DNA from: Nostoc sp. HK-01
GTDB lineage: Bacteria > Cyanobacteriota > Cyanobacteriia > Cyanobacteriales > Nostocaceae
Length of the DNA stretch: 64,000 nucleotides
Direction of reading: 5' to 3'
Assembly: GCA_003990705.1 (NCBI GenBank)
Contig: AP018318.1
Location: 2,049,501-2,113,500, forward strand
Part shown: positions 28,706 to 55,305 of the stretch, piece after piece
Layout of the letters: every line of letters begins with the position of its first letter
How positions within the stretch are numbered: position 1 is the stretch's first letter
Made by a program: the position numbers and the translations under genes
The notes under the pieces: model-generated
Databases searched by the model: none
The model's input: the letters and a program-made list of their open reading frames with translations, nothing else
Told to the model about the DNA's origin: nothing

Positions 28706-28707
28706 AA

Positions 28708-31929: not shown

Positions 31930-31998
31930 AAGTATTCTTTGCGCCTTTGCGTCTTTGCGTGAGGTAAATTAATCACCGGATTTAGTAATAACAAATCA

Positions 31999-35878: not shown

Positions 35879-35907
35879 AATAACCGCAAAGGAAGCAAAG
35901 AAAATAT

Positions 35908-38381: not shown

Positions 38382-38404
38382 AGTTTCTTGTAATTTTAAT
38401 TAAT

Positions 38405-39229: not shown

Positions 39230-39276
39230 TTGTTAGTCTCCAATTTTCAAAAATTCATACATTGAGACTGATTGTG

Positions 39277-40176
39277 TTAAGTCACAGCAAATATTTTGGC
39301 TAATATCATGGAAATAGGTAGTAAACTCAAAACTAATAAACCGTAGGATAAGCCTGCAAAACCAGCCGCCAAAGTTGTATCTAAAATAATTAATGACAAC
39401 ACACCAGCTTTTACTGCAACCCGAATTTGTTCTGGAGTCGGTTGGCGTACGACTTGAATAAAAGGCAATAGTACTCGAATACCTAATAATATTAAGAATG
39501 GGAATGCGGTGATAATTTGATAGTCTGTAAGCCATCCTAATCCCAGAAGCCCAACAAGAACTGCAACTATTAGCAATAGTGCTATGATGCCTGTGCTGTG
39601 TTTTGCACCATGTACTTCACCCCGGCTGAGGGCAGTAATTGCAGCAATGTAAACTATGGGAATTAAAGCTAAAAACCAGTAATTTCCTAAGACTGCTGGG
39701 ACGACACTCACCCCTAGTAATAAGTTACCGCCTCGGCAAAACCCCATATTTATAGGGCCAAGAATTGAGTGATGCTTGGCGATCGCATCATATAATAAGG
39801 CAGCAGTGGCGATCGCGATCGCCACTATCCCACTCAACCAGGAAACCTGCGTCGCCGCCCCTAAACCCACAGTCAACAACACGCTTCCTAATAAAGTTGC
39901 ACCTGTACGCGAAGCTCTATTACTGGGGATTGGCCTTTCTGGACGCTCTTCGGCATCTAATTCGGCATCAAACACATCATTAAATACAATACCGCCGCCA
40001 TACAAGCCCGTGGTCGCTAAAATTAACCATAGCAGTGGTGAGAGATTTGCTTCGGCAAAATACCCAGAAGCCGCAAAACCAGCCATAATATCTGCCCAGG
40101 CGGTGATAATATTGGCAGGTCGGAGTAATTGCAGATATGCCCAGAAGCGTTGAGATTGAAAGGTGGCGGTGTTCAT
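39277..40176 (-). CDS. eboC: EboC: UbiA-family prenyltransferase-like membrane protein
   Basis: A 299-residue integral membrane protein with eight or nine hydrophobic helices. The UbiA Asp-rich motif is FNDVFDAELDAEERPERPIPSNR, where NDxxDxxxD binds Mg-diphosphate (about residues 67-75). A second Asp-containing loop is weaker (LLYDAIAKHHSILGPINMG). UbiA enzymes attach isoprenoid chains to aromatic rings; in the ebo set no prenylated product is known, so the role is open. It starts at ATG 40176, 30 bases after eboB, and precedes tyrA. It is probably one of the membrane parts of the proposed scytonemin-monomer transfer system. Confidence 0.9.
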   Translation of the reverse strand: MNTATFQSQRFWAYLQLLRPANIITAWADIMAGFAASGYFAEANLSPLLWLILATTGLYGGGIVFNDVFDAELDAEERPERPIPSNRASRTGATLLGSVLLTVGLGAATQVSWLSGIVAIAIATAALLYDAIAKHHSILGPINMGFCRGGNLLLGVSVVPAVLGNYWFLALIPIVYIAAITALSRGEVHGAKHSTGIIALLLIVAVLVGLLGLGWLTDYQIITAFPFLILLGIRVLLPFIQVVRQPTPEQIRVAVKAGVLSLIILDTTLAAGFAGLSYGLLVLSLLPISMILAKIFAVT

Positions 40177-40206
40177 ATTTTGACTTGTTCAAAGGCGCAG
40201 AGAGGT

Positions 40207-41130
40207 TTATTCAATCAGTGCGTATTCCTGGCGCGACTCTACCAGTGGTTCTTGCCCTCGGAGGACGGAATTATCGCTGAATGTTTGTCGTTGGTCGATG
40301 GGTGAAAGGTTTAGCCAGTCAGATTCCTGCATTTGACCGCTTTGGCTGTAAGCAGCAAGGGCATTTTGATAACAGACTTTCTCCACATCTGCGGCGGGAA
40401 TCCCTCGTTCTAGCATGAGTAAAGCAGTTTTAGGAACAGCTAGAGGGTCGCTTACTCCCCAATCAGCACTGCTATCAACAATGATGTTATTGCTCCCATA
40501 TTGCCTGACAACTTCCACCATCCGGGCATTCCCCATTTTGGTATGAGGGTAAATTGTGAATGCTGCCCAAAAGCCTCTGTCTAAAACTTCCGCTACTGTT
40601 TCTTCGTTGTTATGATCAACAATTACCTGGGATGGTTTTAAGCCGTGTTCAATGCAGACATCCATACTGCGGCTTGTCCCTGCCTTTTTATCACGGTGGG
40701 GTGTATGAATCATCACCAACATATCTAGTTCTTTGGCAAGTTCTAGCTGGAGGCGAAAATATTTGTCTTCGGCGGGTGTTATATCGTCATAACCAATTTC
40801 GCCAATGGCAACTACACCTTCTTTGCAAGCATAAAGCGGTAATAATTCCATGACTTGTTCTGCTAAAGCTTCGTTGTTAGCTTCTTTAGAGTTCAAGCCA
40901 ATTGTGCAGTAATGTTTAATCCCAAACTGTGAAGCCCGAAATCTTTCCCAACCAACTAAGCTGCTGAAATAATCTTGAAATGAACCAACATTAGTCCGCG
41001 GTTGTCCCAACCAGAAAGCTGGTTCAATTACTGCCACAATTCCCGATTTCCGCATCTGCTGATAATCATCAGTTGTGCGCGAACTCATGTGAATATGGGG
41101 GTCGATAAACATCATATTACTAATATTCAT
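40207..41130 (-). CDS. eboB: EboB: TatD-like metal-dependent hydrolase
   Basis: A 307-residue amidohydrolase-fold protein. The first metal motif His-x-His is in MFIDPHIHMSSRTTDDYQQM (about residues 8-27), followed by GEIGYDD (Glu), MVMIHTPHRDK (His), VIVDHNNEETV (His) and IIVDSSADWGVSDP (Asp). All five metal-ligand positions of the TatD family can be seen. The start overlaps the eboA stop by 4 bases (ATGA). The substrate is unknown; TatD proteins are nucleases or hydrolases, but EboB belongs to a separate branch linked with secondary metabolite clusters. Confidence 0.9.
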   Translation of the reverse strand: MNISNMMFIDPHIHMSSRTTDDYQQMRKSGIVAVIEPAFWLGQPRTNVGSFQDYFSSLVGWERFRASQFGIKHYCTIGLNSKEANNEALAEQVMELLPLYACKEGVVAIGEIGYDDITPAEDKYFRLQLELAKELDMLVMIHTPHRDKKAGTSRSMDVCIEHGLKPSQVIVDHNNEETVAEVLDRGFWAAFTIYPHTKMGNARMVEVVRQYGSNNIIVDSSADWGVSDPLAVPKTALLMLERGIPAADVEKVCYQNALAAYSQSGQMQESDWLNLSPIDQRQTFSDNSVLRGQEPLVESRQEYALIE

Positions 41131-41891
41131 AGATATTTTTGTGAAAACTTAGTAGGCATCTGATTTTGCAAATCTTCTAAATCAATAAATTTTTCAACTA
41201 ACGGCCAAATTTCTGCCGAAACTGATCGGTTAGCACTCCGACGTTCGTCAGCATAATCAATTAACATCCTTGCCAATTCAGCATTAGCACGTAAATCCAA
41301 ACCTTGAATTAACTGCAAAGAACTACCCACAAATAACGCTTTCAACACCATCTGATTCCATGCCAAATTATCAAAATATTCGGCTGGATAAGGATTACAT
41401 AAAGCCACAGCATTAAATACTGCGGTCATATTGCTGCGAATTCCTTCCGCCGCCCGCTTTTGTAATTTTTCTGCATAAGGTAATAAAGGTAAGGCTTGAT
41501 AAAGTGTTACCAGCTCCCCAACATCAGCAGTTATAAATACTTGTTCTAAAGCAGATAAATAATTCTCAGAATCAGCTTGTGCCAGAGTTAATACTAGTAG
41601 TATACGCGCCGTTTGATCAACACTCCAATGGCTAGGAAACCAGCCTGTTCTTATTGCTGAAGCATGATTTAAATCTTGAGAGGTTAATTTCAGTTGATGT
41701 TTGCCTGTATAACGAGGCACTCTACTAAAAGCACTAAAAAATACTCGCGTATTAGCACCGCTATTTATTTTCTCTGTAGTTTCATTTAGCCAAATAACAG
41801 CTTCTTGAGTAACTTGTTGTGTTACCCAGTGATGTAATAATTCATTAATATTAGTTATTTTGTAATCAATTACAGCAGACATAATATACAC
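41127..41891 (-). CDS. eboA: EboA family protein
   Basis: A 254-residue, mostly helical soluble protein. The pattern fits EboA family members (FSRVPRYTGKHQL, GWFPSHWSVDQTARILLVLTL, MVLKALFVGSSLQLIQGLDLRANAELARMLIDYADERR, here quoted in part). No catalytic motif is known. It is the first gene of the ebo set, directly after scyF (79 bases) and overlapping eboB by 4 bases. A second in-frame ATG three codons in (MSAVIDYKI) may be the true start. The family is found with scytonemin and other secondary-metabolite clusters and is named from the eustigmatophyte/bacterial operon. Confidence 0.85.
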   Translation of the reverse strand: MYIMSAVIDYKITNINELLHHWVTQQVTQEAVIWLNETTEKINSGANTRVFFSAFSRVPRYTGKHQLKLTSQDLNHASAIRTGWFPSHWSVDQTARILLVLTLAQADSENYLSALEQVFITADVGELVTLYQALPLLPYAEKLQKRAAEGIRSNMTAVFNAVALCNPYPAEYFDNLAWNQMVLKALFVGSSLQLIQGLDLRANAELARMLIDYADERRSANRSVSAEIWPLVEKFIDLEDLQNQMPTKFSQKYL

Positions 41892-41970
41892 CTAAATATT
41901 AGGGATTAGGAATGGGAAATTAATAGCTTTATTCCCAAATCCTAACTCCCGATTTTCAAATAGAACCTTT

Positions 41971-43131
41971 TTAACTGATGGCTGATTTTTGTTGTCTATT
42001 TTTCCGCCATTTAGCAGCAGCAATCCCCATGCCAAATATTCCTATACCTAACATTGAGCTTGGCTCTGGTACTTCGTTTCTACCTTCAACTTTTAACACT
42101 TGCACACGACCTTGGAAGAAGTCGCCGACATAGAGTTTGCCATCTTTATAGGCTGTGCCACCTGTCCAGTTAAATCTACCGGGTGTTAAATCGAGAGGGT
42201 CGCCAAAAGGTGGTTCTCCCAATTGAGGAGGCGGTACAATTCCGCCAGACGCATCAAGGGCTGGTTCACCAAATGCAGTTAAGAAGTTACCGTTTTTATC
42301 AAATACCTGGACGCGGCTGTTGATAGAATCAGCTACATAGATATTCTCAAACTCGTCTACTTCAATACCAATTGGCTGATTAAACTGTCCTAGCCCTGTG
42401 CCTTGTGTGCCAAATGTTAAAATGGGGTCGCCTGCGGGATTGAGTACCTGAACTCGGTTGTTAAACTGGTCACTCACATAGAAATTCCCACTCACTGGAG
42501 AAATTCTGACACCTGCTGGCCCTTGAAACTGCCCAGGTGCAGTACCAGAAGTACCAATGGAAGCAAGTAGTTGACCATCAGGCGTGTATTTATTAATTTT
42601 ATCGCCGCTAAAATCACCTATATACACATTACCTTGTTGGTCAAATGTCACACCAGAAGGGCCAAAGAAAGCTCTACCAGGGATGAGGCCGCCAAATGAA
42701 CCAAAGGAATTGATAAAGTTACCTTGAGGATCGTAGACATTAACACGGTTGTTAAAAACATCCCCTACATACAGGTTCCCAGTTTGGGGAGATATTTCTA
42801 ACGCTGATGGTTCGTCGAATTCTCCTGGCCCTGTACCACCTCTACCAATTGCGCCAATGTACTCGCCTTGAGGGTTGAATACTTCGACTTTGTTACCGAT
42901 ATTTGGGTTAAAACTACCATCTGGGTTAAGACCGCGACCGTTACTAACTAGGGTATTTCCGGCGCTATCTACGGTAATGCCTTGAGGCACAAACAGCTGC
43001 CCAGGCGCAAAGCCAGGACTACCAATACTACGTTCGTATTTTAAGCTTAAAGACAAAGCTTGAGCAGAGGTTGTCAACACCATAAATCCGGTACTGACAA
43101 CGGCGATCGCCAAATGTTTTACTAATCCCAT
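41971..43131 (-). CDS. scyF: ScyF: periplasmic NHL beta-propeller protein with PEP-CTERM
   Basis: I choose the ATG at 43131 (MGLVKHLAIAVVSTGFMVL), which gives 386 residues and a proper signal peptide cut near AQA. An in-frame ATG at 43242 adds 37 residues that are not signal-like. The mature part is a six-bladed NHL propeller (repeats such as GQFQGPAGVRISPVSGNFYV, FNQPIGIEVDEFENIYVADS and VFDKNGNFLTAFG), spaced about 50 residues. The C-terminus carries a PEP-CTERM signal (VPEPSSMLGIGIFGMGIAA, then KWRKNRQQKS). ScyF is one of the three exported scytonemin proteins thought to act on the monomer in the periplasm; its reaction is unproven. It lies 152 bases after scyE by this start. Confidence 0.88.
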   Translation of the reverse strand: MGLVKHLAIAVVSTGFMVLTTSAQALSLSLKYERSIGSPGFAPGQLFVPQGITVDSAGNTLVSNGRGLNPDGSFNPNIGNKVEVFNPQGEYIGAIGRGGTGPGEFDEPSALEISPQTGNLYVGDVFNNRVNVYDPQGNFINSFGSFGGLIPGRAFFGPSGVTFDQQGNVYIGDFSGDKINKYTPDGQLLASIGTSGTAPGQFQGPAGVRISPVSGNFYVSDQFNNRVQVLNPAGDPILTFGTQGTGLGQFNQPIGIEVDEFENIYVADSINSRVQVFDKNGNFLTAFGEPALDASGGIVPPPQLGEPPFGDPLDLTPGRFNWTGGTAYKDGKLYVGDFFQGRVQVLKVEGRNEVPEPSSMLGIGIFGMGIAAAKWRKNRQQKSAIS

Positions 43132-43283
43132 AAGTTTTACAGTTCTGGTTGATGAGGTATACTCTTTCCTAGATAAATGTTGTTCCCAGACCCCGTTTGG
43201 GAAAGTTAAAATTTGGGCTGCTGCCACCTGTGCATTTAACAACTTTCGCAGTGAGGCAGCAGTCCATTCTGTTAGTTAAAGAA

Positions 43284-44672
43284 TTAGACCATTTCTGCTT
43301 CAGCTAAGGCTTCACGTTTACGCTTTTTCGCCATTGCCGCTTTACCAAAAGCCGCAGCTATCAGTGTCCCAGCGATAGTAGCGGGTTCGGGAACTTGCTC
43401 TGAACGAGGATTAATCCTAATAACTTGTCCTGAACCTGCCAGCCTAGCGCGATTAGAAATATATAAATTACCATCAGGGCCATAAGTTATTCCAGAAGCT
43501 GCTTCTAAGCCATCACCACTCCAAATGGTTGAGCGAGTCCCATCAGTGCCTATTTTGATGACAGAACCGCTAATATCACCAGTGATAATCCCGCCCTGTT
43601 GAATGGCTTTCCATTCAGAAACATTGATGTGTTGCAAGGCATATAAGTTGCCTTCTGGGTCGTAGGTAACACCAGTTAACTGCGTAAAACCATCAGCTAG
43701 AGTTTGAATTTCTAAATTATCAGGATTAACTGAAAATAGCCGAGCTTCGCCTTCAGGATAAGGGAAATATGTATATTCGCTAATTGTTAAACTGCCATCA
43801 GGAGCAACAGCAATTCCTGTAGGTACGGATTGATTAGATACTGGTAAACCGTTAGAACCACTTGTATAACCTGGTGGTAATGGTGCGCCTCCTGTTGGGT
43901 CTACTGCGCCTCCAGGAAGCATAGGAAATTCCAGGCTATCTGGTGATATGAGTTTCGGTGGTAATGCAGTTACATTCTGAATTCCACTGCCATCAAGTCC
44001 TACAGAATAGAGGGTATTTCCACCGCCATCAACAACAAAAGCATTATTACCCTTAATAGCAAAAGCATAGGGGTTAGAAATTAAATCTGTACCATCAGGA
44101 TTATTACTGGCTTCGTAGGCGGCAAAATCGGCAAGAGTGGTGAGTCCACCAGTGTTTAAGTCTACTTTATATAATTTGCCAAGGTCAGGCGACCTTAATA
44201 CGGTGTCCCGTTTATTCGGATCACCCGCCAGACCTGTCAATAGATAAGCGTTACCTCTAGAATCAAATTTGAAATCTGCGGGGCCTGCGGCTTGTTCTCC
44301 AGAAGGTGATAATGCAATAGAAGTTAGACCAGAGATGATATTTGTTCTAGTGCCGTCTTTGGCAATTTTAACTAAGGAACCATTTTGACCAGCACACAAA
44401 GGAATGTATGCGGCGCTTGGAGATGGGATACATCTTCCGTCTTGGCCATTACCGCCAAAACCGCTTTCAGTTACATAAAGATTGCCTTCACGATCAAAGT
44501 CTAAATTTCGGGGGTTATTTAGACCGTCAGCTATAACTTTGAAACTAGCTGCTTCGGCTGCTTTTGTGCCAGCAACGATGGTAATACCAAGAGTAACAAG
44601 TGTAATAGTTAGATGTTTGAGTTTCATTTGTTGTAAGTTGTGTATTAGTAAAGTTGGAAAATTTGTGGTCAT
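43284..44672 (-). CDS. scyE: ScyE: exported beta-propeller protein with PEP-CTERM, paralogue of ScyD
   Basis: A 462-residue protein whose start ATG (44672) overlaps the scyD stop (ATGA). An internal ATG at 44627 (MKLKHLTITLVTLG) begins a more usual signal peptide, cut near AEAAS. The mature part is a gluconolactonase-like propeller (FKVIADGLNNPRNLDF, YGPDGNLYISNRARLAG). The C-terminus is a PEP-CTERM sorting signal (VPEPATIAGTLIAAAFG, then KKRKREALAEAEMV). The N-terminal part matches ScyD almost residue for residue over ADGLNNxR.LxFxxxGxLYVTE, so the two arose by tandem duplication. Its proposed role is late periplasmic processing of the scytonemin monomer; no reaction is established. Confidence 0.9.
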   Translation of the reverse strand: MTTNFPTLLIHNLQQMKLKHLTITLVTLGITIVAGTKAAEAASFKVIADGLNNPRNLDFDREGNLYVTESGFGGNGQDGRCIPSPSAAYIPLCAGQNGSLVKIAKDGTRTNIISGLTSIALSPSGEQAAGPADFKFDSRGNAYLLTGLAGDPNKRDTVLRSPDLGKLYKVDLNTGGLTTLADFAAYEASNNPDGTDLISNPYAFAIKGNNAFVVDGGGNTLYSVGLDGSGIQNVTALPPKLISPDSLEFPMLPGGAVDPTGGAPLPPGYTSGSNGLPVSNQSVPTGIAVAPDGSLTISEYTYFPYPEGEARLFSVNPDNLEIQTLADGFTQLTGVTYDPEGNLYALQHINVSEWKAIQQGGIITGDISGSVIKIGTDGTRSTIWSGDGLEAASGITYGPDGNLYISNRARLAGSGQVIRINPRSEQVPEPATIAGTLIAAAFGKAAMAKKRKREALAEAEMV

Positions 44673-45943
44673 TCCAGGGAGTTACTACTACTGGGTTTGC
44701 GCTTCCGTAACCAACTAATGCCCAGAACGCTAAACGTTAATAAGCTAAAAACAGAAGTTGGTTCAGGAATAGATTGGGGATTCTCAACTCTGATGATTTG
44801 TCCTTGTCCGGGGCGATCGCTTTGGTTACTGATGTAAAATGCACCATCAGAGCCAATAGTTAAACCATTGGGTGACTCCAAACCTTTGCCACTGAGAATC
44901 GTTGTGCGAGTGCCATCAGCAGCAATTTTGATGAGAGAACCAGCAAAATTACCTTTCCATGCTGACTGATTGGCATACTGCAAGGCATACAAATTACCCG
45001 CAGTATCAAACTCTAAGTCTGTGATTTGAGTAAAGCCATCTGCATAAACTGTGGTTTTACCATCAGTACCCACTCGATAGATTTTGGCTCCACCTTCAGG
45101 AAAGGGAAACCCAGTGAATTGGCTGACGTAGTAAGCACCATCAAGACCTTTGACGACACTTGAAGGTACTGCTTGAATAGCAATTTGTCCTGGTGGTGGT
45201 TCTGTGGGAGTGGGTACTTGACCTGGTTCGTTAGATGGTGTGCCTGTGGGTGGAAAAACTGGGTTGGTGAATATATCTTGGGGAAATACTGTGAGTGCTT
45301 GTAAGTTACTACCATCAGTCTTGACACTGAGTAAATCGTTAGCACCTGCATCAACGGTAACTATGCGATCGCCATCGATGAAAAAACCTAAAGGATTGCT
45401 ATTAATATCGCCTCTATCGGGGTTATTGACGAGTTCATAGTTAGCTAAATCAGCAACAGTTGTCCAGGAATTACGTTGAAAATCCGGGGTAATGATTTTT
45501 CCCAGTACAGTGTTGCCCAGATTGCGATCGCGGAAGCTTGGATCAGCGCCATATCCTACTAAAATATAGGGTTTACCTGTGCTATCAAATTGGATGTCCC
45601 GCACTCCGCCTGCTCCTGAACCATCGGCTAAGGCTATGGAAGGTAAGCCTGTAAGTATAGGTTTGGCCTGGCCATTCTCAATTTTGAGAACTCTACCACT
45701 TGTGCCGTAGCATAAAGCACCGCCTTGGCCACTCACAGGTGGCACACAAGCTCCGTTTCCTCCAGTTCCGGCCTCTGTGACATACAAACTGCCATCACTG
45801 CCAAAACTCAAACCTCTAGTATTATTCAGACCATCTGCAATCACAGAAAAAGAGGCTGCCTCAGATGTTTTCATTCCGGCAACAGCCGCAACACAGAAGG
45901 CGAGAATAGTAATGGGTAGTTGTGGGAATTTGATGTGTTGCAT
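44669..45943 (-). CDS. scyD: ScyD: exported beta-propeller protein with PEP-CTERM
   Basis: A 424-residue protein with a signal peptide (MQHIKFPQLPITILAFCVAA, cut near SEAAS). A gluconolactonase-like beta-propeller follows (FSVIADGLNNTRGLSFGSDG, LSGKGLESPNGLTIGSDGAFY), then a C-terminal PEP-CTERM signal (IPEPTSVFSLLTFSVLGIS, then WLRKRKPSSSNS). Reports on the cluster suggest ScyD is not strictly needed for the pigment in every strain (recalled, to be checked). It starts 65 bases after scyC; the intervening bases are a short GCGTCG/CTCCGCG-type repeat. It is coupled to scyE by a 4-base stop/start overlap. Confidence 0.9.
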   Translation of the reverse strand: MQHIKFPQLPITILAFCVAAVAGMKTSEAASFSVIADGLNNTRGLSFGSDGSLYVTEAGTGGNGACVPPVSGQGGALCYGTSGRVLKIENGQAKPILTGLPSIALADGSGAGGVRDIQFDSTGKPYILVGYGADPSFRDRNLGNTVLGKIITPDFQRNSWTTVADLANYELVNNPDRGDINSNPLGFFIDGDRIVTVDAGANDLLSVKTDGSNLQALTVFPQDIFTNPVFPPTGTPSNEPGQVPTPTEPPPGQIAIQAVPSSVVKGLDGAYYVSQFTGFPFPEGGAKIYRVGTDGKTTVYADGFTQITDLEFDTAGNLYALQYANQSAWKGNFAGSLIKIAADGTRTTILSGKGLESPNGLTIGSDGAFYISNQSDRPGQGQIIRVENPQSIPEPTSVFSLLTFSVLGISWLRKRKPSSSNSLE

Positions 45944-46008
45944 TTTTTCGACGCAGAGGAATAAGGAGGTAAACGCGGAGGTACGCGGAGTGTTTGATCA
46001 GAAGTGAC

Positions 46009-46986
46009 TTAACGACTGTTAGCAACTAATTCTGGCTCTTTGGCTACTGGTACATAACTCATACCTCTGTCAAAAGATTTGAAGTTGCCAGCTTTGCCTT
46101 CTAAGAGGCGTTTAATGTTCATACTTTCTGCACCGAAGTCTTCTATCTGGAGTTTGCCATGAGCTAGTTGTTCTCCAACTTTCCAGAAAGTAATACGATG
46201 CAAAATTAGCCCAGAAGCATCAGGGTCGTTAAACGCGTAAGCCGTGGGGATGAGCAGAGCTACAGAACGCTGATAGTAGTTGTATTCTGGATAAAAATAT
46301 TCTTGTTCTAGCAAGTAGTATTTGCTTAAGCTATGAACACGTACAGAGATTTGCACTTTCTGGTTATATTCATCCAAAAAGTCGCCTAATGAGCCATTCA
46401 CTTCACCAATGGGGCGGACTAAATGCGCCCATTCGTTGATATTTTTGACATCTTTTAAATAATCAACGGCAATTTCTACTGGAGCATCAACATAGATAGT
46501 ATCTGTATCAATAAAGTAGCGTCCTTTAGCTGCTGTTTTCCGGCCAAGTTGGCGCTCTAAATTAGCTTTGAGAGAACGACACTCTGAAGTGTGGACAGTA
46601 TGAATACCCTGCATAATCATTGGTGTTTGGCGTTTGGGGTCAACAAAGCTCAACCAATGAAAATACACGCCTTCTTCGTCTGTTCCAGGCTCTATATAAT
46701 CGGGGGGAAAAAGTAGTACAGGATAAACTTGGAAGTATTGATTGTACTCCAGTCCGCAATGCCACTCAATGCCATAAAATAGGGAATTTTCTAGCTTTTT
46801 AACGTGATAGTAGAGGTTTTTTTGATAGCCAGATGCAGTTCCCAGCCAAGTATCTTCGTCAATTTGCTCTTGCATCCGGCTATAAAGCGTCCATTCATCT
46901 AAGTTTTTTAAACTACAAAGATATTCAAAGGCGCTTTCTGGTGAAGTAGCTATATAAGCTGATGTTGCAAAGGTATTTCTTTCCAC
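46009..46986 (-). CDS. scyC: ScyC: scytonemin biosynthesis cyclase
   Basis: A 325-residue soluble protein. In the known pathway ScyC cyclises and decarboxylates the beta-keto acid made by ScyA to form the tricyclic scytonemin monomer precursor. The sequence shows two similar halves of START/SRPBCC type. Each begins with a membrane-free strand-helix pattern (AYIATSPESAFEYLCSLKNLDEWTL at about 8-32, IYVDAPVEIAVDYLKDVKNINEWAHL at about 165-190, shown here only as landmarks in part), followed by beta strands rich in aromatic residues. There is no signal peptide, so it is cytosolic like ScyA and ScyB. It starts at ATG 46986, 36 bases after scyB. Confidence 0.92.
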   Translation of the reverse strand: MERNTFATSAYIATSPESAFEYLCSLKNLDEWTLYSRMQEQIDEDTWLGTASGYQKNLYYHVKKLENSLFYGIEWHCGLEYNQYFQVYPVLLFPPDYIEPGTDEEGVYFHWLSFVDPKRQTPMIMQGIHTVHTSECRSLKANLERQLGRKTAAKGRYFIDTDTIYVDAPVEIAVDYLKDVKNINEWAHLVRPIGEVNGSLGDFLDEYNQKVQISVRVHSLSKYYLLEQEYFYPEYNYYQRSVALLIPTAYAFNDPDASGLILHRITFWKVGEQLAHGKLQIEDFGAESMNIKRLLEGKAGNFKSFDRGMSYVPVAKEPELVANSR

Positions 46987-47022
46987 TGATAATTCCTCTA
47001 ATTAATAGTTAATTGCTCAATG

Positions 47023-48084
47023 TTAAGCAGCAAGTTGTTGATTTTTTATGGCTCTAGCTTGCAAAATGCGTTCTTCTGCCAATCTTTTAGAAGCATCGTT
47101 AGTAGTGATGCCTTGCTGATAAGCAATGCCAAAAATCTTCAGCAATGTATCGTAAATATTATTGACTTGCTTGAAAGCTTTATCTTCGTCATAGCCAATC
47201 ATCTCGTTATAAACATTGATAATGCCACCAGCATTAATGACATAATCAGGACTGTAGAGAATGCCTTTCTCTATTAGTCTTTGACCGTGAAGACGCTCAT
47301 TTTCTAATTGATTATTAGCCGCACCCGCAATAATTTTTGCTTGGATTTGGGGAATCGTTTGACTATTAATAATTCCTCCCATTGCACAAGGAGAAAATAT
47401 ATCTACATCTAAACCATAAATTTCTTCTGGTTCTACCACAGTAGCACCAAATAAGTTTTTTATTTCTACTGTTTTTTCTGGGTTGATATCACTAACAAAA
47501 AGTTGTACGCCATTTTCATATAAGTGCTGACAAAGATGTTTGCCAACATTTCCTAAGCCTTGAACAGCAACTCTCATACCTTCAAGTCTTTGGGTCTGCC
47601 AACGAAATTCTACAGCAGATTTAATACCTAAAAATACTCCTAAAGCAGTAATTGGTGCGGGGCCGCCTGATTTTTCTTCTACACCAACTACATGATTAGT
47701 TTCTTGTTGAATTGTGCGAACATCTTGGGGTGTAATGTTGACATCTTGACCTGTGATAAAACGTCCTTTAAGGCTTTCAACAAACCGTCCATAAGCTCTC
47801 AACATTTCGTCAGTTTTATCTGTAGGATTAGCAATAATAACTGCTTTGCCTCCACCTGCGGGAATGTTGGCGCAAGCTGCTTTATAAGTCATACCCCGAC
47901 TAAGACGCAAAGCATCTTTTAAAGCAGCTTCTTCATTGATGTAAGGATAAAGTCTGGTGGCTCCCATTGCTGGCCCTAAGCTAGTGTCATGGATGGCAAT
48001 AATTGCTCTGATATCAGGATTTTTTCCATGACAGTAAAGGATTTGCTCATGACCCATTTCTCGAACAGTTTCAAATAGCTGCAT
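47023..48084 (-). CDS. scyB: ScyB: tryptophan-oxidising Glu/Leu dehydrogenase homologue
   Basis: A 353-residue member of the Glu/Leu/Phe/Val dehydrogenase family. ScyB oxidatively deaminates L-tryptophan to indole-3-pyruvate with NAD+. The catalytic lysines are in MTYKAACANIPAGGGKAVI (about residues 66-84), and the catalytic Asp is in GQDVNITPQDV. The Rossmann motif is VAVQGLGNVGKHL (about 180), and NINPEKT-like DINPEKTVEIKN follows the second strand. FSPCAMGGIIN and IAGAANNQL are family signatures. It lies 264 bases after the scyA stop, a gap that holds an AT-rich hairpin. Expression may be reduced by the upstream IS insertion if no internal promoter exists. Confidence 0.93.
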   Translation of the reverse strand: MQLFETVREMGHEQILYCHGKNPDIRAIIAIHDTSLGPAMGATRLYPYINEEAALKDALRLSRGMTYKAACANIPAGGGKAVIIANPTDKTDEMLRAYGRFVESLKGRFITGQDVNITPQDVRTIQQETNHVVGVEEKSGGPAPITALGVFLGIKSAVEFRWQTQRLEGMRVAVQGLGNVGKHLCQHLYENGVQLFVSDINPEKTVEIKNLFGATVVEPEEIYGLDVDIFSPCAMGGIINSQTIPQIQAKIIAGAANNQLENERLHGQRLIEKGILYSPDYVINAGGIINVYNEMIGYDEDKAFKQVNNIYDTLLKIFGIAYQQGITTNDASKRLAEERILQARAIKNQQLAA

Positions 48085-48286
48085 GTGTGGTCTCCTATTC
48101 TTGATTGTGAGTTGATTAGAGCAAGTTAGTAAGCAAATTAGGAAACACGATTGGGGCGAAAGAATGCGGCAAAATTAGCTAAATGGGAAAGGAGAAATGT
48201 GAAAAAATATTAAAATTTTCTAGCTAATTTTGCCACTTTGGTAATATGTATGACAGGTAAAAATTAATGTTTATGGTGTAATTGTT

Positions 48287-48310
48287 GACAAAAAAGTTGG
48301 TTTTTTTGTC
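48287..48310 (-). terminator. AT-rich hairpin between scyA and scyB
   Basis: GACAAAAAA (48287-48295) pairs with TTTTTTGTC (48302-48310) around a 6-nt loop, about 40 bases downstream of the scyA stop. On the minus strand the right-hand arm is a run of T residues. It could be a weak terminator or an RNA-processing site between scyA and scyB. The low GC content of the stem makes this tentative. Confidence 0.3.
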
Positions 48311-48348
48311 AGCGATCGCCAAATACCTAAAATACTCCAGCCAGAAAG

Positions 48349-49115
48349 TTAAACCAAGGGAAAGGAAACTTGCTTGGCTGGAGTTTTCACAATATTTGAG
48401 CCATTTGCTTTGACACCTTGGGCTGCTAAACTCTTGTTGCGTCCGCCAGAAGGTGCGGGTCGGTCAGGGTCAATCACAACATCAACGACAAAGGGAACTT
48501 CAGATGCGATCGCTTGTTGTAATGCTGCTTCTAAGTCAGACTCTTTGGTGACTCCGACTCCTTCTGCACCCATACCACGGGCAATCATCGCAAAATTAGT
48601 GGCAGGAATCTCTGCATCTGCACCTTTTAAACCCAATATTTTCATGCCTTGATGGCACATATTGTATCGGGCATCATTCAGGACAATCCAAACCGCAGGG
48701 ATTTTATATTTGACGGCGGTGCTGATTTCGTTATTCATCAGCATTGCTCCATCACCCACAATGGCAACGGCTTTACCTTTTCTCGCTTGGGCTGCACCAA
48801 CTACGCCTGTCGCAGCGTGTCCCATCGCCCCAACTCCGGTGCTGACTCGGTAACGATTGGGTTCGGTGAAGCGCAGACAATGAGTTGACCAAGTAAACGA
48901 GTTACCACACTCCGCCAAAACTACCGCATCGCTACCTTCTACAACTATTTTTTGAATAGCTGCCATCAATACTTCTGGCCGCACTGGAGAGTCTGGGGCG
49001 GCTGCGATAAGTTCAGGTTGGGGGTTAGGTAACAACTCAGTTGCAAAAGGAATTTCTGGTAAATGCTCCAAAAGTTCCTGTAAATAAGCTTGGATATCAG
49101 ATTGAATCGAGAAAG
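48349..49115 (-). pseudogene. scyA: scyA, 3' part (C-terminal ThDP-binding half), separated by an IS element
   Basis: This is the C-terminal part of a thiamin-diphosphate enzyme of the acetolactate synthase family. The ThDP/Mg motif is complete: GDGAMLMNNEIS, then 16 residues to NDARYN. The upstream half is at 50186-51329, and an IS element lies between. The frame is open right up to the target duplication at 49107-49115 (the joined product reads DTFSIQSDIQAYLQELLEHLPE across the insertion site). An internal ATG at 49071 could start a fragment, but it would lack the PYR domain with the catalytic glutamate. There is no other mutation in it that I can see. Confidence 0.93.
49107..49115. repeat. 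Left copy of the 9-bp target duplication
   Basis: TCGAGAAAG at 49107-49115 directly abuts the left end of the IS. The identical nine bases at 50186-50194 abut the right end. Nine bases is the duplication length expected for IS903-type elements. Confidence 0.95.
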
Positions 49116-50185
49116 GGCGTTGTTGCGTGAATAGGCAAAATGGTAAATTTACTTATAGCCGATGTTTTCGAGCCGCCTAACCCTGCATATGAAGACGAAA
49201 GCCCAGTACAAAGTTAAGAATTGGAACGCTTATGATGCTGCCCTCAAGCAACGAGGCAGTATAACTTTTTGGGTGAACGAAGAAATCATCGAGCAGTGGC
49301 GCAATCAGCAAAAAACCGGGAAAAAGGGGGCATCGAATCATTACAGTGATGTGGCAATCGCCACTATGGGAACAATCCAATCGGTGTTTCATTTACCAGG
49401 GCGACAAGCAGAGGGGTTTTTAGAATCGCTGTTCACGCTCATGGGAATTGAGCTAGAAGTACCAGACCATTCCACGCTGTCTCGTCGTTTGAGCAAGTTG
49501 TCTGTGGAACTACCAGTTATCCCAAAAGACAAAGCTGTTCATGTGGTAGTGGATTCAACTGGTGTAAAAGTCTATGGTGAAGGTGAGTGGAAAGTCCGCA
49601 CACATGGAGTAGGAAAACGACGGACGTGGCGGAAGTTGCATCTAGGCGTTGACTGTGAAAGCGGCGAAATTCTGGGTGCGGTGGTGACTACTAATGATAT
49701 GGCTGATTGCGAGGTACTGCCTGACATATTGGAGCAGATTGAGCAACCGATAGAACAAGTATCTGGTGATGGTGGCTATGATACAAAAGGTTGTTACGAC
49801 ACCATTTCACAACACGGGGCCAAAGCCATAATTCCACCGCGTAGCAACGCCAAAATCCAACAACACACCAACAATGAAACACACTTCCATCCCAGAGATG
49901 AAAATCTGCGACGAGTGAATCAAGTTGGGCGCAAGCAATGGAAACAAGAGAGTGGATATCATCGCCGTTCATTATCCGAGACAGCTATATTTCGACTCAA
50001 AACCATTTTTGGTGGTAAGTTACGACGACGCTTTTTTAACAATCAAGCTGTCGAGCTATTTCTACAGTGTGCCGCCCTTAACCGCATGATCCAGTTGGGC
50101 AAGCCAGACAGTTACAAAGTAGACAACTAACTTCTGTTCTAGTACCAGATTGGTGTGTCTTTTTTTTCTTTCATGCAACAAAGCC
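49116..50185 (+). mobile_element. Complete IS5-family (IS903-group) insertion sequence
   Basis: A 1,070-bp element. The left end GGCGTTGTTGCGTGAA (49116-49131) and the right end TTCATGCAACAAAGCC (50170-50185) are inverted repeats with two mismatches. They match the GGCTTTGTTGCAT end typical of IS903. It is flanked by the perfect 9-bp direct repeat TCGAGAAAG. One transposase gene on the plus strand fills most of it, opposite to the scyA direction. The element is intact, so it may still be mobile. Confidence 0.95.
49189..50130 (+). CDS. IS5-family transposase (DDE)
   Basis: A 313-residue DDE transposase. I start it at ATG 49189 (MKTKAQYKVKNWNAYD) because similarity to IS903 transposase begins there; an in-frame ATG at 49162 adds nine residues. 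The first Asp is in VVVDSTGVKVYGEGEWK, the second in VSGDGGYDTKG, and the Glu is in the signature Y-X2-R-X3-E-X6-K (YHRRSLSETAIFRLK). All catalytic residues are present, and the frame is unbroken. It catalyses cut-and-paste movement of the element through the terminal repeats. There is no accessory gene. Confidence 0.96.
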   Translation: MKTKAQYKVKNWNAYDAALKQRGSITFWVNEEIIEQWRNQQKTGKKGASNHYSDVAIATMGTIQSVFHLPGRQAEGFLESLFTLMGIELEVPDHSTLSRRLSKLSVELPVIPKDKAVHVVVDSTGVKVYGEGEWKVRTHGVGKRRTWRKLHLGVDCESGEILGAVVTTNDMADCEVLPDILEQIEQPIEQVSGDGGYDTKGCYDTISQHGAKAIIPPRSNAKIQQHTNNETHFHPRDENLRRVNQVGRKQWKQESGYHRRSLSETAIFRLKTIFGGKLRRRFFNNQAVELFLQCAALNRMIQLGKPDSYKVDN

Positions 50186-51329
50186 TCGAGAAAGTATCAG
50201 CGTGGGGGTAAGCCACACCAGGAACTTCTGGATCTATATCGACATGGACAAAGCCTTTTTTCGGAACCATTGTGGGACTCCAGAAAGAAGTCGGTTCACC
50301 TAAACGGGTTCCCAGTACGAGGGTACGTGCAGGCGGATATTTTTCCATATAGGTAATGACGGAAGCATCACCACCCAAACCTGTAACACCAACAAACTGC
50401 GGATGATCTTCGGGGAAAATGCCTTTACCACGGGGGGAACACATCACCGCAGCCCCCGTTCTTTCCGCTAAGGCGTAGATTTCATCAGCAGCATCCCGCG
50501 CTCCAAACCCAACCCAAATAGCAAAGGGTTCAGAGAATAATAATTCCGCTGATTTAGCGACTTTTTCTGTTTGAGCAGTGATGCGGTAAGCATCAACATC
50601 TAGGTGTGGCCAGGAAATGCTTTCAACTAGACTGGTTTGCACCGCTGTCGGGATACTGATGTGGGCGACAAATCCCCCTGGTTGAGCTAAACCCAGTGCC
50701 AGTTTACGAAAAATTTGTGGCAGTTGGGCAGCAGACTCAACGGTAATCGCATAGTTGAACAATGCACCTGATGTGAAAATTCCGCCACTAGGCAAGGTGT
50801 AGCTACTGGTTTCTTGAATTGCCCAGCGTCCACGTTGGGGTGCGGAGGTGCAAGCCGATAACAGAATCACCTTTGCACCTTCACCACGGGCAGCAAATAA
50901 CCCAGTGAGAGCGTTGGTAATTCCCGGCCCAGCGGTGGTAAAGACTACCGTGGGGCGATCGCTGGCAAAATAAGCTTCCACCGCAGCAAACGCCGCCCCT
51001 GCTTCATGGCGAAAGTTCAGCACTTGCATTTGGCTGTTTGATAAAGCATTCCACAAACTGGCCATTGCACCGCCAGCAATGCCGAAAGCACTACATATAC
51101 CCATGTTTACTAGCATTTGAGCGATCGCTTCCGCGACTGTCAGATGAGGGTGGCGATCGTTGGCTAACAAAGTTGGAATTACTTTTTGAGGCTCTAAATG
51201 CTCAAGCTTGTGGGCATCTTGAGGCAGAGATTCTGCATAATGTGTACCGTTTGTAGGCAGTTCTTGGTACAAATCCGTAGTAACTAGTTGAGAATTAGAA
51301 TCAGTATAATTTTGGCTCATTGCTTTCAC
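50186..51329 (-). pseudogene. scyA: scyA, 5' part (PYR and central domains), cut off by an IS element
   Basis: This is the N-terminal 381 codons of ScyA, the ThDP enzyme that couples indole-3-pyruvate with p-hydroxyphenylpyruvate in scytonemin synthesis. The PYR domain has the catalytic Glu in LNFRHEAGAAFAAVEAY, plus VFTTAGPGITNALTGLFAA. The central domain runs through SAELLFSEPFAIWVGFGARDAADEIYAL (quoted as a landmark) to GVAYPHADTFS at the insertion point. Reading on into the IS adds about 15 foreign residues to a stop at 50139. Joined with 48349-49106 the frame is continuous: 1,144 + 758 = 1,902 bases, 633 residues plus stop. The first codon at 51329 is GTG; an ATG follows at 51320 (MSQNYTDSNSQ), which I consider as likely. 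Confidence 0.93.
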
Positions 51330-52280
51330 TTAATTCCCGATACTTGCACAAGCTCTTGAGTATACACTTGACAAATTGGTGATATATAATACTCAAAAAT
51401 TTGTTGCTTATTTTACAGATATGACCGGGCTGGTTTGACAGTAGATGTTTGTGCGGCTTTTCAGCCCATTAAAAAACTCTTGAAAAAGTGAAGAAAATTA
51501 AAGCAGTACTTATGAAAACCAGAGTAAGGGAAATTAATACCTGTTTACAATGAACAATTTTTTGATGCCGTTACCAATTTTTTCGCAATCGTGATATTGG
51601 CTACATTAATTGTTTCGCTATTTACTTCAGTATATTGCCTTAAATCTTGTGTTAATCAGCAATTTGTATCAAATTAACTTTAAATAACTTAATATTAGGT
51701 TCTAAAGTACAGGCAGTTAAACGCTCAAATTCTTGAGTCAGATTCAAGTGTTTATGCAAAACTATTTGCATTATCTACAACTAAGTAACTTTACTCGACT
51801 TATCAATTAAAGTTACCCCTTATGGAAGATGACGCATGAACACTTACTCTAAGCCCAAAAAACAATGTATTCCTTTTGACGGATGATAAACTAGATTTTT
51901 CTATATTAGATTCCTGAAGGAATGAGTTAAGAAAAATTAAGAGGATTCATTAATGAGTAAAAATTAGCCTGTGGAAGCTCAACCGCCTTCCAGGCTGCAT
52001 CAGCAATTTTTGACTAAGCCAAAGCTACTGAGAGTTTTTGATACCAATAAAACCAAGTCGCACAAACTCAAGGGTGACAAAGTTAACAGCATCAAACATC
52101 TAGAAATCTCCATGACCGCAACATTAACCTAGAACAGAAACACCTGGTTGCTAAAACTCGCAGTCAGGTCTTGGTTATTCAAATCAAAAGTAAAGCATTA
52201 TAGTTTGTGCTTCTCTTTAAAAAACATAAGGAACCTTCATAAATGCACAACATTAATATTATTAGGAGTAATAAATTACA
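51330..52280. promoter_or_regulatory. Divergent control region between scyA and the sensor kinase
   Basis: About 950 bases separate the divergent scyA and kinase genes. They must contain the scyA promoter and the sites used by the AraC-type regulator encoded next door. No clear direct repeat or -10/-35 set could be picked by eye. The stretch 51953-52203 looks like a decayed small gene and is listed separately. The remainder is AT-rich. Confidence 0.5.
51953..52203 (+). pseudogene. Possible decayed small gene
   Basis: After a good AAGAGG site, an ATG at 51953 starts a frame with a TAG after four codons. It then stays open for over 50 codons (PVEAQPPSRLHQQFL, KPKLLRVFDTN, HKLKGDKVNSIKHLEIS) to a stop at 52130. 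Another frame continues directly with HDRNINLEQKHLVAKTRSQ to a stop at 52201. One nonsense change and one frameshift would explain this. No family was recognised, so this may be chance. It lies upstream of the sensor kinase gene in the same direction. Confidence 0.3.
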
Positions 52281-54218
52281 ATGGCGCTACAGTCAGAATT
52301 AGAGTTTAAGCTTGCTCACTTTCTTATTAATAATTCTGTAGATGCGGCATTCTGTTTAGGGTCAAACTGGCAATTTATTTATGTCAATGATGCAACTTGT
52401 AAAATGACTGAATATTCCCGTCAAGAGTTGCTATCAATGACTTTGCAGGATATAGATTTAGATTTTTCTCTACATAATTGGTCAGAAAAAAAGCTCCAGA
52501 ATACTGTTACCTTAAAAACTCGTTACCGAGCTAAGGGAGGGCGGATATTTTTAGTAGAAATATCGATCAGTTTTTTAGAAGAACAAGGCAGAAAATTTAG
52601 TTGTGCTTTTGTACGAGATAAAAGTCATGAAGTAATAGAATTAAGTGTGCAAAAATGGATTAATGAATTAAGAGATGCTAACGAAAACTTACAACAAAAA
52701 ATTTTTGAACTCAAGCAAAGAGAGAGGAAATTAGAAACATCTCTCTCTTTACTGAATTCCACACTCGAAGCTACTGCGATCGGCATTGTGACAATTAACT
52801 TTGAAGGAGATATCATCAGCGTTAATCAAAAGTTTTTGGATATGTGGCAAATTCCAAAATCTTTATTTCGCTCTAAGCGATGTCCTCAATGCAAAGCTTT
52901 TTTTGAAAATAAAATTAAACATCCAGAAACTTTTAATCGACTGATTTGGGAAATTTCTAGCCAATCAGATATTGAAAGCTACGATGTTATTGAATTAAAG
53001 GATGGCAAAATATTTGCTAACTATTCTCAACCTCATTGGTTAGAAGGAAAAATTACTGGTAGAGTGTGGAGTGTTTGGGATATTACTGAATCGAAACAAG
53101 CTGAAGCAGCATTACGGATAAACGAAGCTAGATTTCGGACTTTAGCAGAAATAACAGATGCAAGTACTTTTTTGATTCAAGGTACACGAATTTGTTATGT
53201 TAATCCAGCAGTAGAAATATTAACAGGCTACACCAAATCAGAGCTATTAAATGGTTTTGATATTCGCCAAATAATCAAAAGTAAAAAACACAGACAGTTA
53301 GTTAAATCAAGAGAGGTGAATAACTTTGAATACCAAGAGATAAGTATCCTCACCAAAAACGGTACAGAACGCTGGCTGGCTTGTGCAATAGCCAGACTTG
53401 ATGGAAAACTTGATTTTCAAGGTCAAGAAGTTGAAATGATTGCTGGGATTGATATTACTGATTATAAAAATGCAGAATCGGAACTTAATAAGGCTTTAGA
53501 ACAAGCAAAACAACTGAGTGATTTGAGAGCGCGTTTTCTGTCTATGGTTTGCCACCAACTCCGCAATCCATTGAATGTTGTTTCATTTTCTAATAACTTG
53601 CTCAAGCGATATGTTGATCAACAAACAGCACAAACAATTCAACCTCTACTCGAACAAATTCAACTTTCTATCGAGCAACTGAGCCAGATGTTAGATGAGA
53701 TTTTGTTCTATGCTAAAGCAGAAGCAACAAAACTAAAATTTGAACCAGAATCACTAGAATTAGTTAAATTATGCAATAATTTAGTAGCACAAATGCAGAT
53801 GAGTAATCTGTCGAATACAATAAATTTCACCTGTCAAAATAGACATCTGCAAGTTTATATGGATAAAAAAATATTAGAGGCAATTCTCAAGAATTTGCTA
53901 GATAATGCCATTAAATATTCTCCAATTGGGAGTATAATTAATTTGACACTTTCTCGTAATAGAGAAAAAATAATATTCCAAGTAATAGATCAAGGGATAG
54001 GTATCCCATTGGTAGAGCAAGAACGGGTACTAGAACCGTTTTACCGTGGTAGCAATATTGATAGTATTCCTGGTACTGGATTAGGGTTAGCAATTGTTAA
54101 AAGTTTAGTAGATTTACATGGTGGTGAAATCACTGTAGAAAGTGAAGTTGGCTTAGGTACTACCTTTAAAGTCATGCTGCCATTTAAGAGACAAAATTAT
54201 CATAGTTCAGAGTTATGA
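52281..54218 (+). CDS. Sensor histidine kinase adjacent to the scytonemin cluster (three PAS domains)
   Basis: A 645-residue cytosolic kinase with no membrane helix. PAS1 is at about residues 10-120 and a coiled coil at about 125-160. PAS2 (about 160-275) carries a Cys-X2-Cys pair (C201-P-Q-C204), and PAS3 is at about 285-400. HisKA has the H-box FLSMVCHQLRNPLN (His about 424). HATPase_c has the N box LKNLLDNAIKYSP and G boxes DQGIGI and GTGLGLAIVKSL. It is divergent from scyA and followed by the AraC-type regulator gene (66 bases), the same layout as in Nostoc punctiforme, where this pair controls the cluster. The probable inputs are UV-A or oxidative stress; the sensing chemistry is not established. 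ATG 52281 follows TAGGAGTAATAA. Confidence 0.92.
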   Translation: MALQSELEFKLAHFLINNSVDAAFCLGSNWQFIYVNDATCKMTEYSRQELLSMTLQDIDLDFSLHNWSEKKLQNTVTLKTRYRAKGGRIFLVEISISFLEEQGRKFSCAFVRDKSHEVIELSVQKWINELRDANENLQQKIFELKQRERKLETSLSLLNSTLEATAIGIVTINFEGDIISVNQKFLDMWQIPKSLFRSKRCPQCKAFFENKIKHPETFNRLIWEISSQSDIESYDVIELKDGKIFANYSQPHWLEGKITGRVWSVWDITESKQAEAALRINEARFRTLAEITDASTFLIQGTRICYVNPAVEILTGYTKSELLNGFDIRQIIKSKKHRQLVKSREVNNFEYQEISILTKNGTERWLACAIARLDGKLDFQGQEVEMIAGIDITDYKNAESELNKALEQAKQLSDLRARFLSMVCHQLRNPLNVVSFSNNLLKRYVDQQTAQTIQPLLEQIQLSIEQLSQMLDEILFYAKAEATKLKFEPESLELVKLCNNLVAQMQMSNLSNTINFTCQNRHLQVYMDKKILEAILKNLLDNAIKYSPIGSIINLTLSRNREKIIFQVIDQGIGIPLVEQERVLEPFYRGSNIDSIPGTGLGLAIVKSLVDLHGGEITVESEVGLGTTFKVMLPFKRQNYHSSEL

Positions 54219-54283
54219 GTGTTGATTCTTGCAACTCAAAATTCATAACTTGGAACTACAAAAGAACTTAGGAGTAATTAATT

Positions 54284-55165
54284 GTGTCCCTGTTAGAGAC
54301 TCAGCAAAGAAGTGACGAAATACTTACTGTCAACAATTTTACTAACAGAACAATGATGGCAAAATCATCAAAAACAATTCTCGTTATTGAAGATGATAGT
54401 GTAACCCGCACTCTTTATTTAAAGGGTCTGAAGCTAGAAGGTTTTGATGCGATAGGTGCTGAAAATGGGATGGTGGGTATTCAAAAAGCGCAAGAAAATC
54501 TACCTGATTTGGTAGTTTGCGATATTATGATGCCCTATATGGATGGTTACAGCGTTATCAGTGCGCTTAACCAAAATCCTTCAACAGCAATGATTCCTTT
54601 CATTTTTCTGTCTGGTAGTGACAGTAGGTCAGATATTCGCAAAGGTATGGAATTAGGTGCAGATGATTATATTACCAAACCTTCGACACTAGATGAATTG
54701 CTGAGAGCGATCGCAATTCGTCTTCAAAAGCAAGCCTCATTGAAAAACTTATGCAAAGATATACAAGAAACAACTTCAACATCAATAGAAGAAAATTCCC
54801 CAGACTCGTATAATCCTCAGTCAATTTTTCCTTCTGTACCACAATTAAAAGAGGTTTTTGACTTTATTGAAGCTTATTTTCGCCAAGGAATTACACTGTG
54901 TGATGTGGCTGAGGCGGTTGGTTATTCACCTGCATATTTAACTAATCGAGTAGCCAAACAAACAGGCGAAACTGTCAATAACTGGATTGTGAAACGGCGG
55001 ATGGTGGAAGCTCGTTCTCTACTACAAAATACTGATGAGACCGTTGAGCAAATTGCCAAACTATTAGGCTATCAACACGTTTGTCATTTCTCGCGTCAAT
55101 TTCGCCAACATCATAATTTACCGCCTCATGCTTGGCGGTTATGTTCTAGAAATAAAGAAATTTGA
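54284..55165 (+). CDS. Response regulator with AraC-type DNA-binding domain, scytonemin cluster activator
   Basis: A 293-residue regulator. It begins at GTG 54284 after the Shine-Dalgarno TTAGGAG. The receiver domain is at about residues 30-150 (VIEDDSVTR, phospho-Asp80 in VVCDIMMPYMDGYSVI, Lys in DYITKPSTLDELL). A linker follows, then an AraC/XylS double helix-turn-helix (about 190-288, ITLCDVAEAVGYSPAYLTNRVAK and VEQIAKLLGYQHVCHFSRQFR, shown in part as landmarks). Its homologue in Nostoc punctiforme is reported to be needed to switch on the scy genes under UV-A. With the kinase it makes a complete two-component system, still intact although scyA is broken. Confidence 0.93.
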   Translation: MSLLETQQRSDEILTVNNFTNRTMMAKSSKTILVIEDDSVTRTLYLKGLKLEGFDAIGAENGMVGIQKAQENLPDLVVCDIMMPYMDGYSVISALNQNPSTAMIPFIFLSGSDSRSDIRKGMELGADDYITKPSTLDELLRAIAIRLQKQASLKNLCKDIQETTSTSIEENSPDSYNPQSIFPSVPQLKEVFDFIEAYFRQGITLCDVAEAVGYSPAYLTNRVAKQTGETVNNWIVKRRMVEARSLLQNTDETVEQIAKLLGYQHVCHFSRQFRQHHNLPPHAWRLCSRNKEI

Positions 55166-55305
55166 TCAAGTTTATAGCATAATTTTGATAACAACTGGAG
55201 TTTGGTTTGCTTTTGTTGATTACGATAAACTCTTGTTCTGGGACAGTCAGGAATTTTTTCCAGAATTTCATACCCAGGAATAGCAGCAAAGATAAAAGTA
55301 TTCAT
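55126..55305 (-). pseudogene. Remnant of the 5' end of a large multi-sensor kinase/ATPase gene
   Basis: A 59-codon frame starts at ATG 55305 (MNTFIFAAIPGYEILEKIPD, then PRTRVYRNQ). The IPGYEILEKI ... TRVYR pattern resembles the extreme N-terminus of the very large serine/threonine kinase-histidine kinase proteins of Nostoc. The resemblance ends after about 35 residues, and the frame runs into antisense of the AraC-type regulator. It is probably a leftover of a deletion next to the cluster. The match is from memory and needs a search. Confidence 0.4.

Follow-up and report, generated by a model that had tools for sequence, protein, structure and literature searches.

The 64,000-nt window analyzed here (Nostoc sp. 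HK-01, contig AP018318.1, positions 2,049,501 to 2,113,500) carries a biosynthetic gene cluster for the sunscreen pigment scytonemin in which scyA is interrupted by an insertion sequence (IS) of the IS5 family. The interrupted gene and the element comprise the following features, given, as throughout, in window positions and with ThDP standing for thiamine diphosphate:

48349..49115, minus strand: 3′ part of scyA (ThDP-binding TPP_C domain), including one copy of the 9-bp duplication; NF035923 positions 397-623, 425 bits; TPP_enzyme_C
49107..49115, no strand: left copy of the target-site duplication, TCGAGAAAG, seen in the sequence
49116..50185, plus strand: IS5-family insertion sequence, 1,070 bp, identified by sequence, transposase family and other copies
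49116..49131, plus strand: left terminal inverted repeat (14/16 match), seen in the sequence
49162..50130, plus strand: DDE transposase, 322 amino acids from ATG 49162; NF033579, DDE_Tnp_1_5 and DDE_Tnp_1
50170..50185, minus strand: right terminal inverted repeat, seen in the sequence
50186..50194, no strand: right copy of the target-site duplication, TCGAGAAAG, seen in the sequence
50186..51320, minus strand: 5′ part of scyA (TPP_N, TPP_M); NF035923 positions 1-373, 641 bits; TPP_enzyme_N, TPP_enzyme_M

The sequences on both sides of the IS are parts of one gene, and the 9-bp duplication at its edges, noted in a first-pass annotation of this DNA, is perfect; two given edges would agree exactly over 9 bp by chance with a probability of ~4e-6. 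Once the IS and one copy of the duplication are taken out, the remaining 1,902 bases contain just one stop codon, at their end. The annotation had counted 634 codons including the stop in this joined frame. The frame is indeed continuous, and the count began at GTG 51329, which adds three codons before ATG 51320; alignment to relatives places the start at that ATG (MSQNYTDS) and gives a protein of 630 amino acids plus the stop. No full-length match (>1020 bits) to the ScyA model NF035923 was obtained, the two pieces scoring 641 and 425 bits as open reading frames and 639 and 449 bits in a genome-wide search, whereas the ScyA of Nostoc sp. LEGE 06077 (G007) scored 1096.6 bits. The joined frame was compared with ScyA by end-to-end alignment and was 94.6% identical to the LEGE 06077 protein, 93.2% identical to that of the metagenome-assembled genome TH1S01 (G008) and 91.7% identical to that of CHAB 5844 (G009). 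The gene also lies beside scyB, scyC and a two-component system. The annotation had suggested related genomes as a place to look for the uninterrupted site, and scyA of LEGE 06077 is unbroken there. The two blocks in which LEGE 06077 aligns with the window share exactly the nine duplicated bases (L150, 14358-14366), which argues against a misassembled junction.

The split falls at the boundary of the TPP_M and TPP_C domains, between the central and ThDP-binding regions as first described, and an alignment to the solved enzyme BbmA, with LEGE 06077 ScyA as the query, puts it in a linker. The 5′ scyA frame reads on into the IS as far as a stop at 50139, adding 15 foreign residues. On the 3′ side the frame opens at 49152, the earliest of the usual start codons in it being TTG 49071 and the earliest ATG lying at 48966; no start better than such internal codons is available. 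An intact second scyA, which the annotation had named as a finding that would overturn its reading, was not found elsewhere in the genome using NF035923, in a search that did not include a separate run with the ScyA-related model NF035927. The only other ThDP matches were two weak paralogues (157 and 142 bits; cut-off 1020), probably ordinary enzymes of the acetolactate-synthase type. Nothing in the genome scored in the range that we would expect (~900-1000 bits) of the second ScyA copy of other Nostocales, the "cluster Y" of the available part of PMC9796282.

The element has the attributes of the IS5 family: a transposase well above the family cut-off (NF033579, 333.8 bits; cut-off 140), terminal inverted repeats and a short target-site duplication. 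With its DDE transposase, length of ~1.07 kb and 9-bp duplication it resembles other members of that family; a 9-bp target duplication is also characteristic of the IS903 group. The size, position and intact transposase reported initially were borne out, whereas the ends, described as matching, are merely similar and agree at 14 of 16 positions. What the annotation missed is that the element belongs to a multi-copy family found mostly off the main contig. The genome (7.52 Mb, 8 contigs) holds 15 full-length copies and one fragment, and 12 of the 15 lie outside contig C1, which contains the window and 86% of the DNA (6.49 Mb; P ~1e-8); the smaller contigs are likely plasmids. Target duplications measured 9 bp in 13 of the 15 full-length copies and 8 bp in one, and were absent from one. 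Four copies, that in scyA among them, have the same sequence, another two depart from it at position 515 alone (synonymous CGG/AGG), and the remaining nine are 82-86% identical. The copy found on a conjugative plasmid of Nostoc linckia NIES-25 has A515 and otherwise no difference, its transposase being annotated from the equivalent of 49189 rather than of ATG 49162. Ten of the 14 other full-length copies sit in an open frame of at least 90 codons. A scan of the IS revealed no terminator-like sites, and its promoter-like sites did not exceed chance expectation. A heterocyst-type excision element, judged by the usual features of such elements, was rejected: the long open frame matches DDE transposases alone and no site-specific recombinase, and 15 full-length copies are present.

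Two measures support the recent insertion that the annotation had proposed, recent being meant here in evolutionary terms, relative to species divergence. Since the split from LEGE 06077, the scyA lineage has accumulated 7 nonsynonymous (N) and 41 synonymous (S) changes with TH1S01 as outgroup, or 12 N:47 S with CHAB 5844; the LEGE 06077 side shows 14 N:57 S and 14 N:48 S, respectively. With the neutral N:S ratio set to 3.2 (the site ratio computed for scyA is 3.15), the 95% upper limit on the share of the scyA branch spent under relaxed constraint was 0.048 or 0.057, depending on the outgroup. The gene thus appears otherwise undamaged, as first stated, with a single terminal stop in the joined frame and no excess of amino-acid change. 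The second measure is the IS itself: over its 1,070 bp the scyA copy has not a single change when compared with three other copies. Provided that no gene conversion has occurred, this sets an age limit of ~1.8% of the branch, or 0.45% when all four identical copies are used. A bound of ~2% of a species-level branch still leaves room for very long times and does not bear on the acquisition in culture or under low UV that the annotation had raised.

Taken together, it is very probable that a multi-copy IS5-family element jumped into scyA, splitting one gene of a cluster that is otherwise complete as far as checked, and the strain should consequently lack scytonemin. The simplest order of events would be arrival of the element on a plasmid, the change at position 515, and further jumps, including that into scyA. 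Transposition into scyA duplicated 9 bp of target and cut the gene between the regions for the central and ThDP-binding domains, and the 5′ half as it stands codes for a truncated protein ending inside the IS. ScyA, an early enzyme of the pathway, condenses indole-3-pyruvate with p-hydroxyphenylpyruvate, as described in the available parts of PMC4870267 and PMC6282210, and a table in the accessible portion of PMC9796282 apparently gives ScyA-C as essential. Because ScyA joins both substrates and no second match in the ScyA range was found in the genome, loss of scytonemin is likely, if unproven; the strain would make neither the scytonemin monomer, of 275 Da (PMC6282210), nor scytonemin, and ScyB, ScyC and the precursor genes may stay expressed.

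The most substantial alternative is a relic cluster, its pathway silent or out of use in this lineage before the IS arrived, so that the IS struck a gene of no consequence. Such strains are known: Anabaena PCC 7120, Lyngbya PCC 8106 and Nodularia CCY 9414 possess the cluster, lack tyrP and produced no scytonemin under UV-A (PMC2726228). No tyrosinase-family match was found in the HK-01 genome, and the same held for 9 of 11 genomes of the genus, including G006-G009 with intact scyA. Four of the 11 have neither ScyA nor ScyB over the cut-off and no ScyC. With TH1S01 as outgroup, more amino-acid change was also seen here than in LEGE 06077 in scyB (47023-48084; 13 N:26 S versus 3:39) and in the response regulator gene (54284-55165; 10 N:10 S versus 2:18). 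These contrasts shrank, however, with CHAB5844 as outgroup (scyB, 10:32 versus 9:36; response regulator, 7:13 versus 3.5:14.5). Moreover, dN/dS, the ratio of nonsynonymous to synonymous rates, was 0.05-0.10 for scyA, scyB and scyC against three relatives, the scyA lineage shows no amino-acid excess and the checked cluster genes are open, so that a relic cluster seems unlikely to us.

The other explanations fare considerably worse. A reversible switch, with precise excision of the IS in some cells preserving scyA function in the population, could exploit the perfect duplication, from which excision would restore the frame. The element, however, encodes just a DDE transposase as far as seen, 15 copies lie at unrelated sites, and precise excision of DDE-transposase elements is rare; we regard such a switch as very improbable. 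It is hardly more credible that both ScyA pieces are made and form a working split enzyme. The cut does lie in the linker that joins the central domain to the ThDP domain, and a C-terminal frame of 240 amino acids begins at an internal TTG shortly preceded by AGGA, but the 3′ half has no good start, a transcript from the scyA promoter would have to cross the IS in antisense to reach it, and the 5′ half carries the foreign residues. Identical copies, of which there are four of 1,070 bp here, are a usual cause of misjoins, and a chimeric assembly at the IS was accordingly weighed; with the same 9 bp on both flanks of one gene and a continuous LEGE 06077 homolog, we consider it exceedingly improbable.

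Some observations nevertheless weigh against the favoured reading, inactivation of scyA by a recent insertion. The pathway may have been silent already, as in the cluster-bearing strains without tyrP; since those strains made no scytonemin and no tyrosinase-family match occurs here, loss by the insertion alone is not certain. The joined ScyA differs at two residues that are invariant in the 8 relatives compared (S38A and L75M, in alignment columns), both changes being mild. Identity among IS copies can also arise by gene conversion. Split ThDP enzymes occur in nature, and complementation between the halves is conceivable, although the annotation held that neither could work alone.

The remainder of the scytonemin cluster lies on the minus strand, and the genes of a two-component system (histidine kinase, response regulator) are found divergently upstream:

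47023..48084, minus strand: scyB, tryptophan dehydrogenase; NF035922, 675 bits, cut-off 600
46009..46986, minus strand: scyC; NF035924, 610 bits, cut-off 400
44669..45943, minus strand: scyD by gene order (ScyD/ScyE family); NF033206, 400 bits, cut-off 80
43284..44672, minus strand: scyE by gene order (ScyD/ScyE family); NF033206, 391 bits, cut-off 80
41971..43242, minus strand: scyF; NF035926, 645 bits, cut-off 350
41127-41891, minus strand: eboA (with eboB, 40207..41891); family/domain matches
40207-41130, minus strand: eboB (TatD-like; name by gene order); family/domain matches
39277-40176, minus strand: eboC; family over cut-off
38405-39229, minus strand: tyrA; family over cut-off
37146-38381, minus strand: 3-dehydroquinate synthase; family over cut-off
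35908-37149, minus strand: eboE; family over cut-off
34502-35878, minus strand: open frame, presumably eboF-like; no NCBIfam match at E<=1e-60
26534..34203, minus strand: trpE, trpC, trpA, trpB, trpD and aroG; trp genes by family match
26534-27598, minus strand: aroG, open frame named from cluster order
52281..54218, plus strand: sensor histidine kinase next to scyA; 92.5% identical to its LEGE 06077 counterpart; NpF1277 counterpart by position
54284..55165, plus strand: response regulator; 91% identical to its LEGE 06077 counterpart; NpF1278 counterpart by position
26503..55179, no strand: 28.7-kb scytonemin block from aroG to the response regulator, absent at the same site in G002, G007 and G009

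The claim that all other cluster genes and the two-component system remain open held as far as it was checked by alignment to LEGE 06077, family matches and open frames. scyB-F, eboA, eboB, the histidine kinase and the response regulator aligned over ~95-100% of their length to LEGE 06077, and eboC, tyrA, the 3-dehydroquinate synthase gene, eboE and trpE/C/A/B/D exceeded curated family cut-offs.

The position of this block on the chromosome, which the first-pass annotation also passed over, differs from that in the relatives examined. The site could be judged in G002, G007 and G009; the flanks were too diverged in the stretches fetched from G001, G005 and G010, and G003, G004, G006 and G008 were left out. 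The genes that border the block in the window (25482-25928 and 55395-55748) are adjacent in G002, which has no cluster and carries a ~1-kb unrelated stretch between them, and likewise in G007, which has its cluster on a different contig. In G009, whose cluster is elsewhere, a match to 55392 is followed after ~60 bases by a match to 25540. The cluster of G007, G008 and G009 instead lies beside cysH. At the cysH site of HK-01 (G000) and of G002 there is no cluster, only a short spacer, which differs between the two, followed by genes from the far side of the G007 cluster; in G001, G005 and G010, no match of at least 300 bases to the far side of the cysH-site cluster was found in the 19-20 kb fetched.

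Synonymous divergence (dS) from HK-01 was similar for cluster and flanking genes: 0.311 (20 genes) and 0.331 (17 genes) for G007, 0.485 (19) and 0.498 (3 genes only) for G008, and 0.422 (21) and 0.401 (12) for G009. G002, with a flanking-gene dS of 0.202 (18 genes), is nearer to HK-01 than G007 is. The agreement between cluster and flanking dS makes a distant donor unlikely, and horizontal gain from such a donor was not favoured. The block's site being empty in three relatives and the cysH site being empty here imply that the cluster, as a single unit, was either moved or reacquired: the comparison would fit either movement within the lineage, with a separate loss in G002, or loss followed by regain from a near relative. 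We tentatively suggest, as a possibility that falls somewhat short of being probable, that the 28.7-kb unit travels whole, having left the cysH site and come to occupy one that was empty before, whether it relocated or was transferred from a close relative, and that scyA was hit afterwards.

Signs of mobility at the block edges, looked for without a search for integrase genes, were scarce, there being no tRNA gene in the window, no direct repeats within either edge and no Rfam clue. The two edges share an 11-bp direct match that may be due to chance. At the aroG-side edge (26126-26327), inverted-repeat arms of 21 nt, 90% complementary and separated by 160 nt, possibly mark a small non-autonomous element, and beyond the response regulator a match to Rfam NsiR1 (nitrogen stress-induced RNA 1) was found at 56738-56788 (49.4 bits; gathering score 39).

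To place this location in context, the flanks of the response regulator were grouped by single linkage according to the two genes beyond it. Sixty-three of 80 loci could be used (of the 17 dropped, 13 had no regulator match, 3 too little flank and 1 another orientation), and together with the window these 64 fell into 29 groups, the largest with 17 members. So many groups indicate that differing neighbourhoods seem usual for the scytonemin cluster. For scytonemin production, the available part of PMC9796282 reports no evidence of horizontal gain and several losses, a picture that the present data do not directly contradict; a travelling unit, if true, would qualify the published vertical inheritance without sign of horizontal gain.

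In a survey of the family, with at most five ScyA candidates scored per genome, ScyA exceeded the cut-off in 119 of 217 genomes and ScyC in 121. Both were over it in 118 genomes and only one of them in 4, which suggests that clusters are seldom half broken. HK-01 alone, among the 121 genomes with ScyC over the cut-off, had scyA in two pieces. Three other candidates for a disrupted scyA were rejected: G045 and G050 score just below the cut-off (998.5 and 1004 bits) with continuous genes beside scyC, and G191, with one TAG flagged, aligns in one frame. Within the genus, ScyA was over the cut-off in 6 of 11 genomes and ScyB in 7. A scyA loss shared within the genus was likewise rejected, as the four other scyA-less genomes are also without ScyB and ScyC over the cut-off.

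Several loci drew attention in their own right. In G116 (L141, C1:48500-54200), ScyA is over the cut-off with an alignment from residue 48, and scyB and scyC each consist of two overlapping frames, breaks that may reflect a decaying cluster, frameshift or sequencing errors. In G050 (L144, C91:11000-15500), scyC directly follows scyA, and no scyB match was found in the 4.5 kb fetched. In G005 (L146, C35:48000-60000), genes for a distant ThDP enzyme, ~24% identical to ScyA, and a ScyB-like dehydrogenase, ~26% identical to ScyB, lie close together and perhaps belong to a different acyloin pathway.

This is a well-supported but ordinary IS inactivation of a biosynthetic gene, caught early. The closest precedent, which makes such events known in cyanobacteria, is the inactivation of microcystin (mcy) genes in Planktothrix by ISPlr1 and other IS (PMC4766695, PMC9366434, in the parts available). 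There, too, an IS shuts down a single gene while the rest of the secondary-metabolite cluster is kept; the pathway, IS and host differ, and population frequencies were measured in Planktothrix, whereas HK-01 is a single genome. A transposon mutant of scyD in Nostoc punctiforme ATCC 29133 is scytonemin-less (Soule et al., 2007, as cited in the accessible part of PMC4870267). That mutant resembles the present case in having a transposon in the scy operon and in the loss of pigment, which is likely here, and differs in being a product of laboratory mutagenesis, in another gene. Natural decay of a scytonemin cluster gene has also been described for Nostoc sp. N6, in which frnE is a pseudogene and tyrP is missing; the cause there was a stop codon rather than an IS, and the available part of that report does not mention a broken scyA (PMC5987646). 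No published description of an IS insertion in scyA was found in the literature searched, which left out most subscription papers.

As a natural, single-step disruption of scyA in an open cluster, the HK-01 locus should be useful for following the fate of the ScyB and ScyC products without ScyA. With its differing location, the block also offers a way to test how scytonemin clusters move, and the split scyA represents a plausible first step in the loss of a sunscreen.

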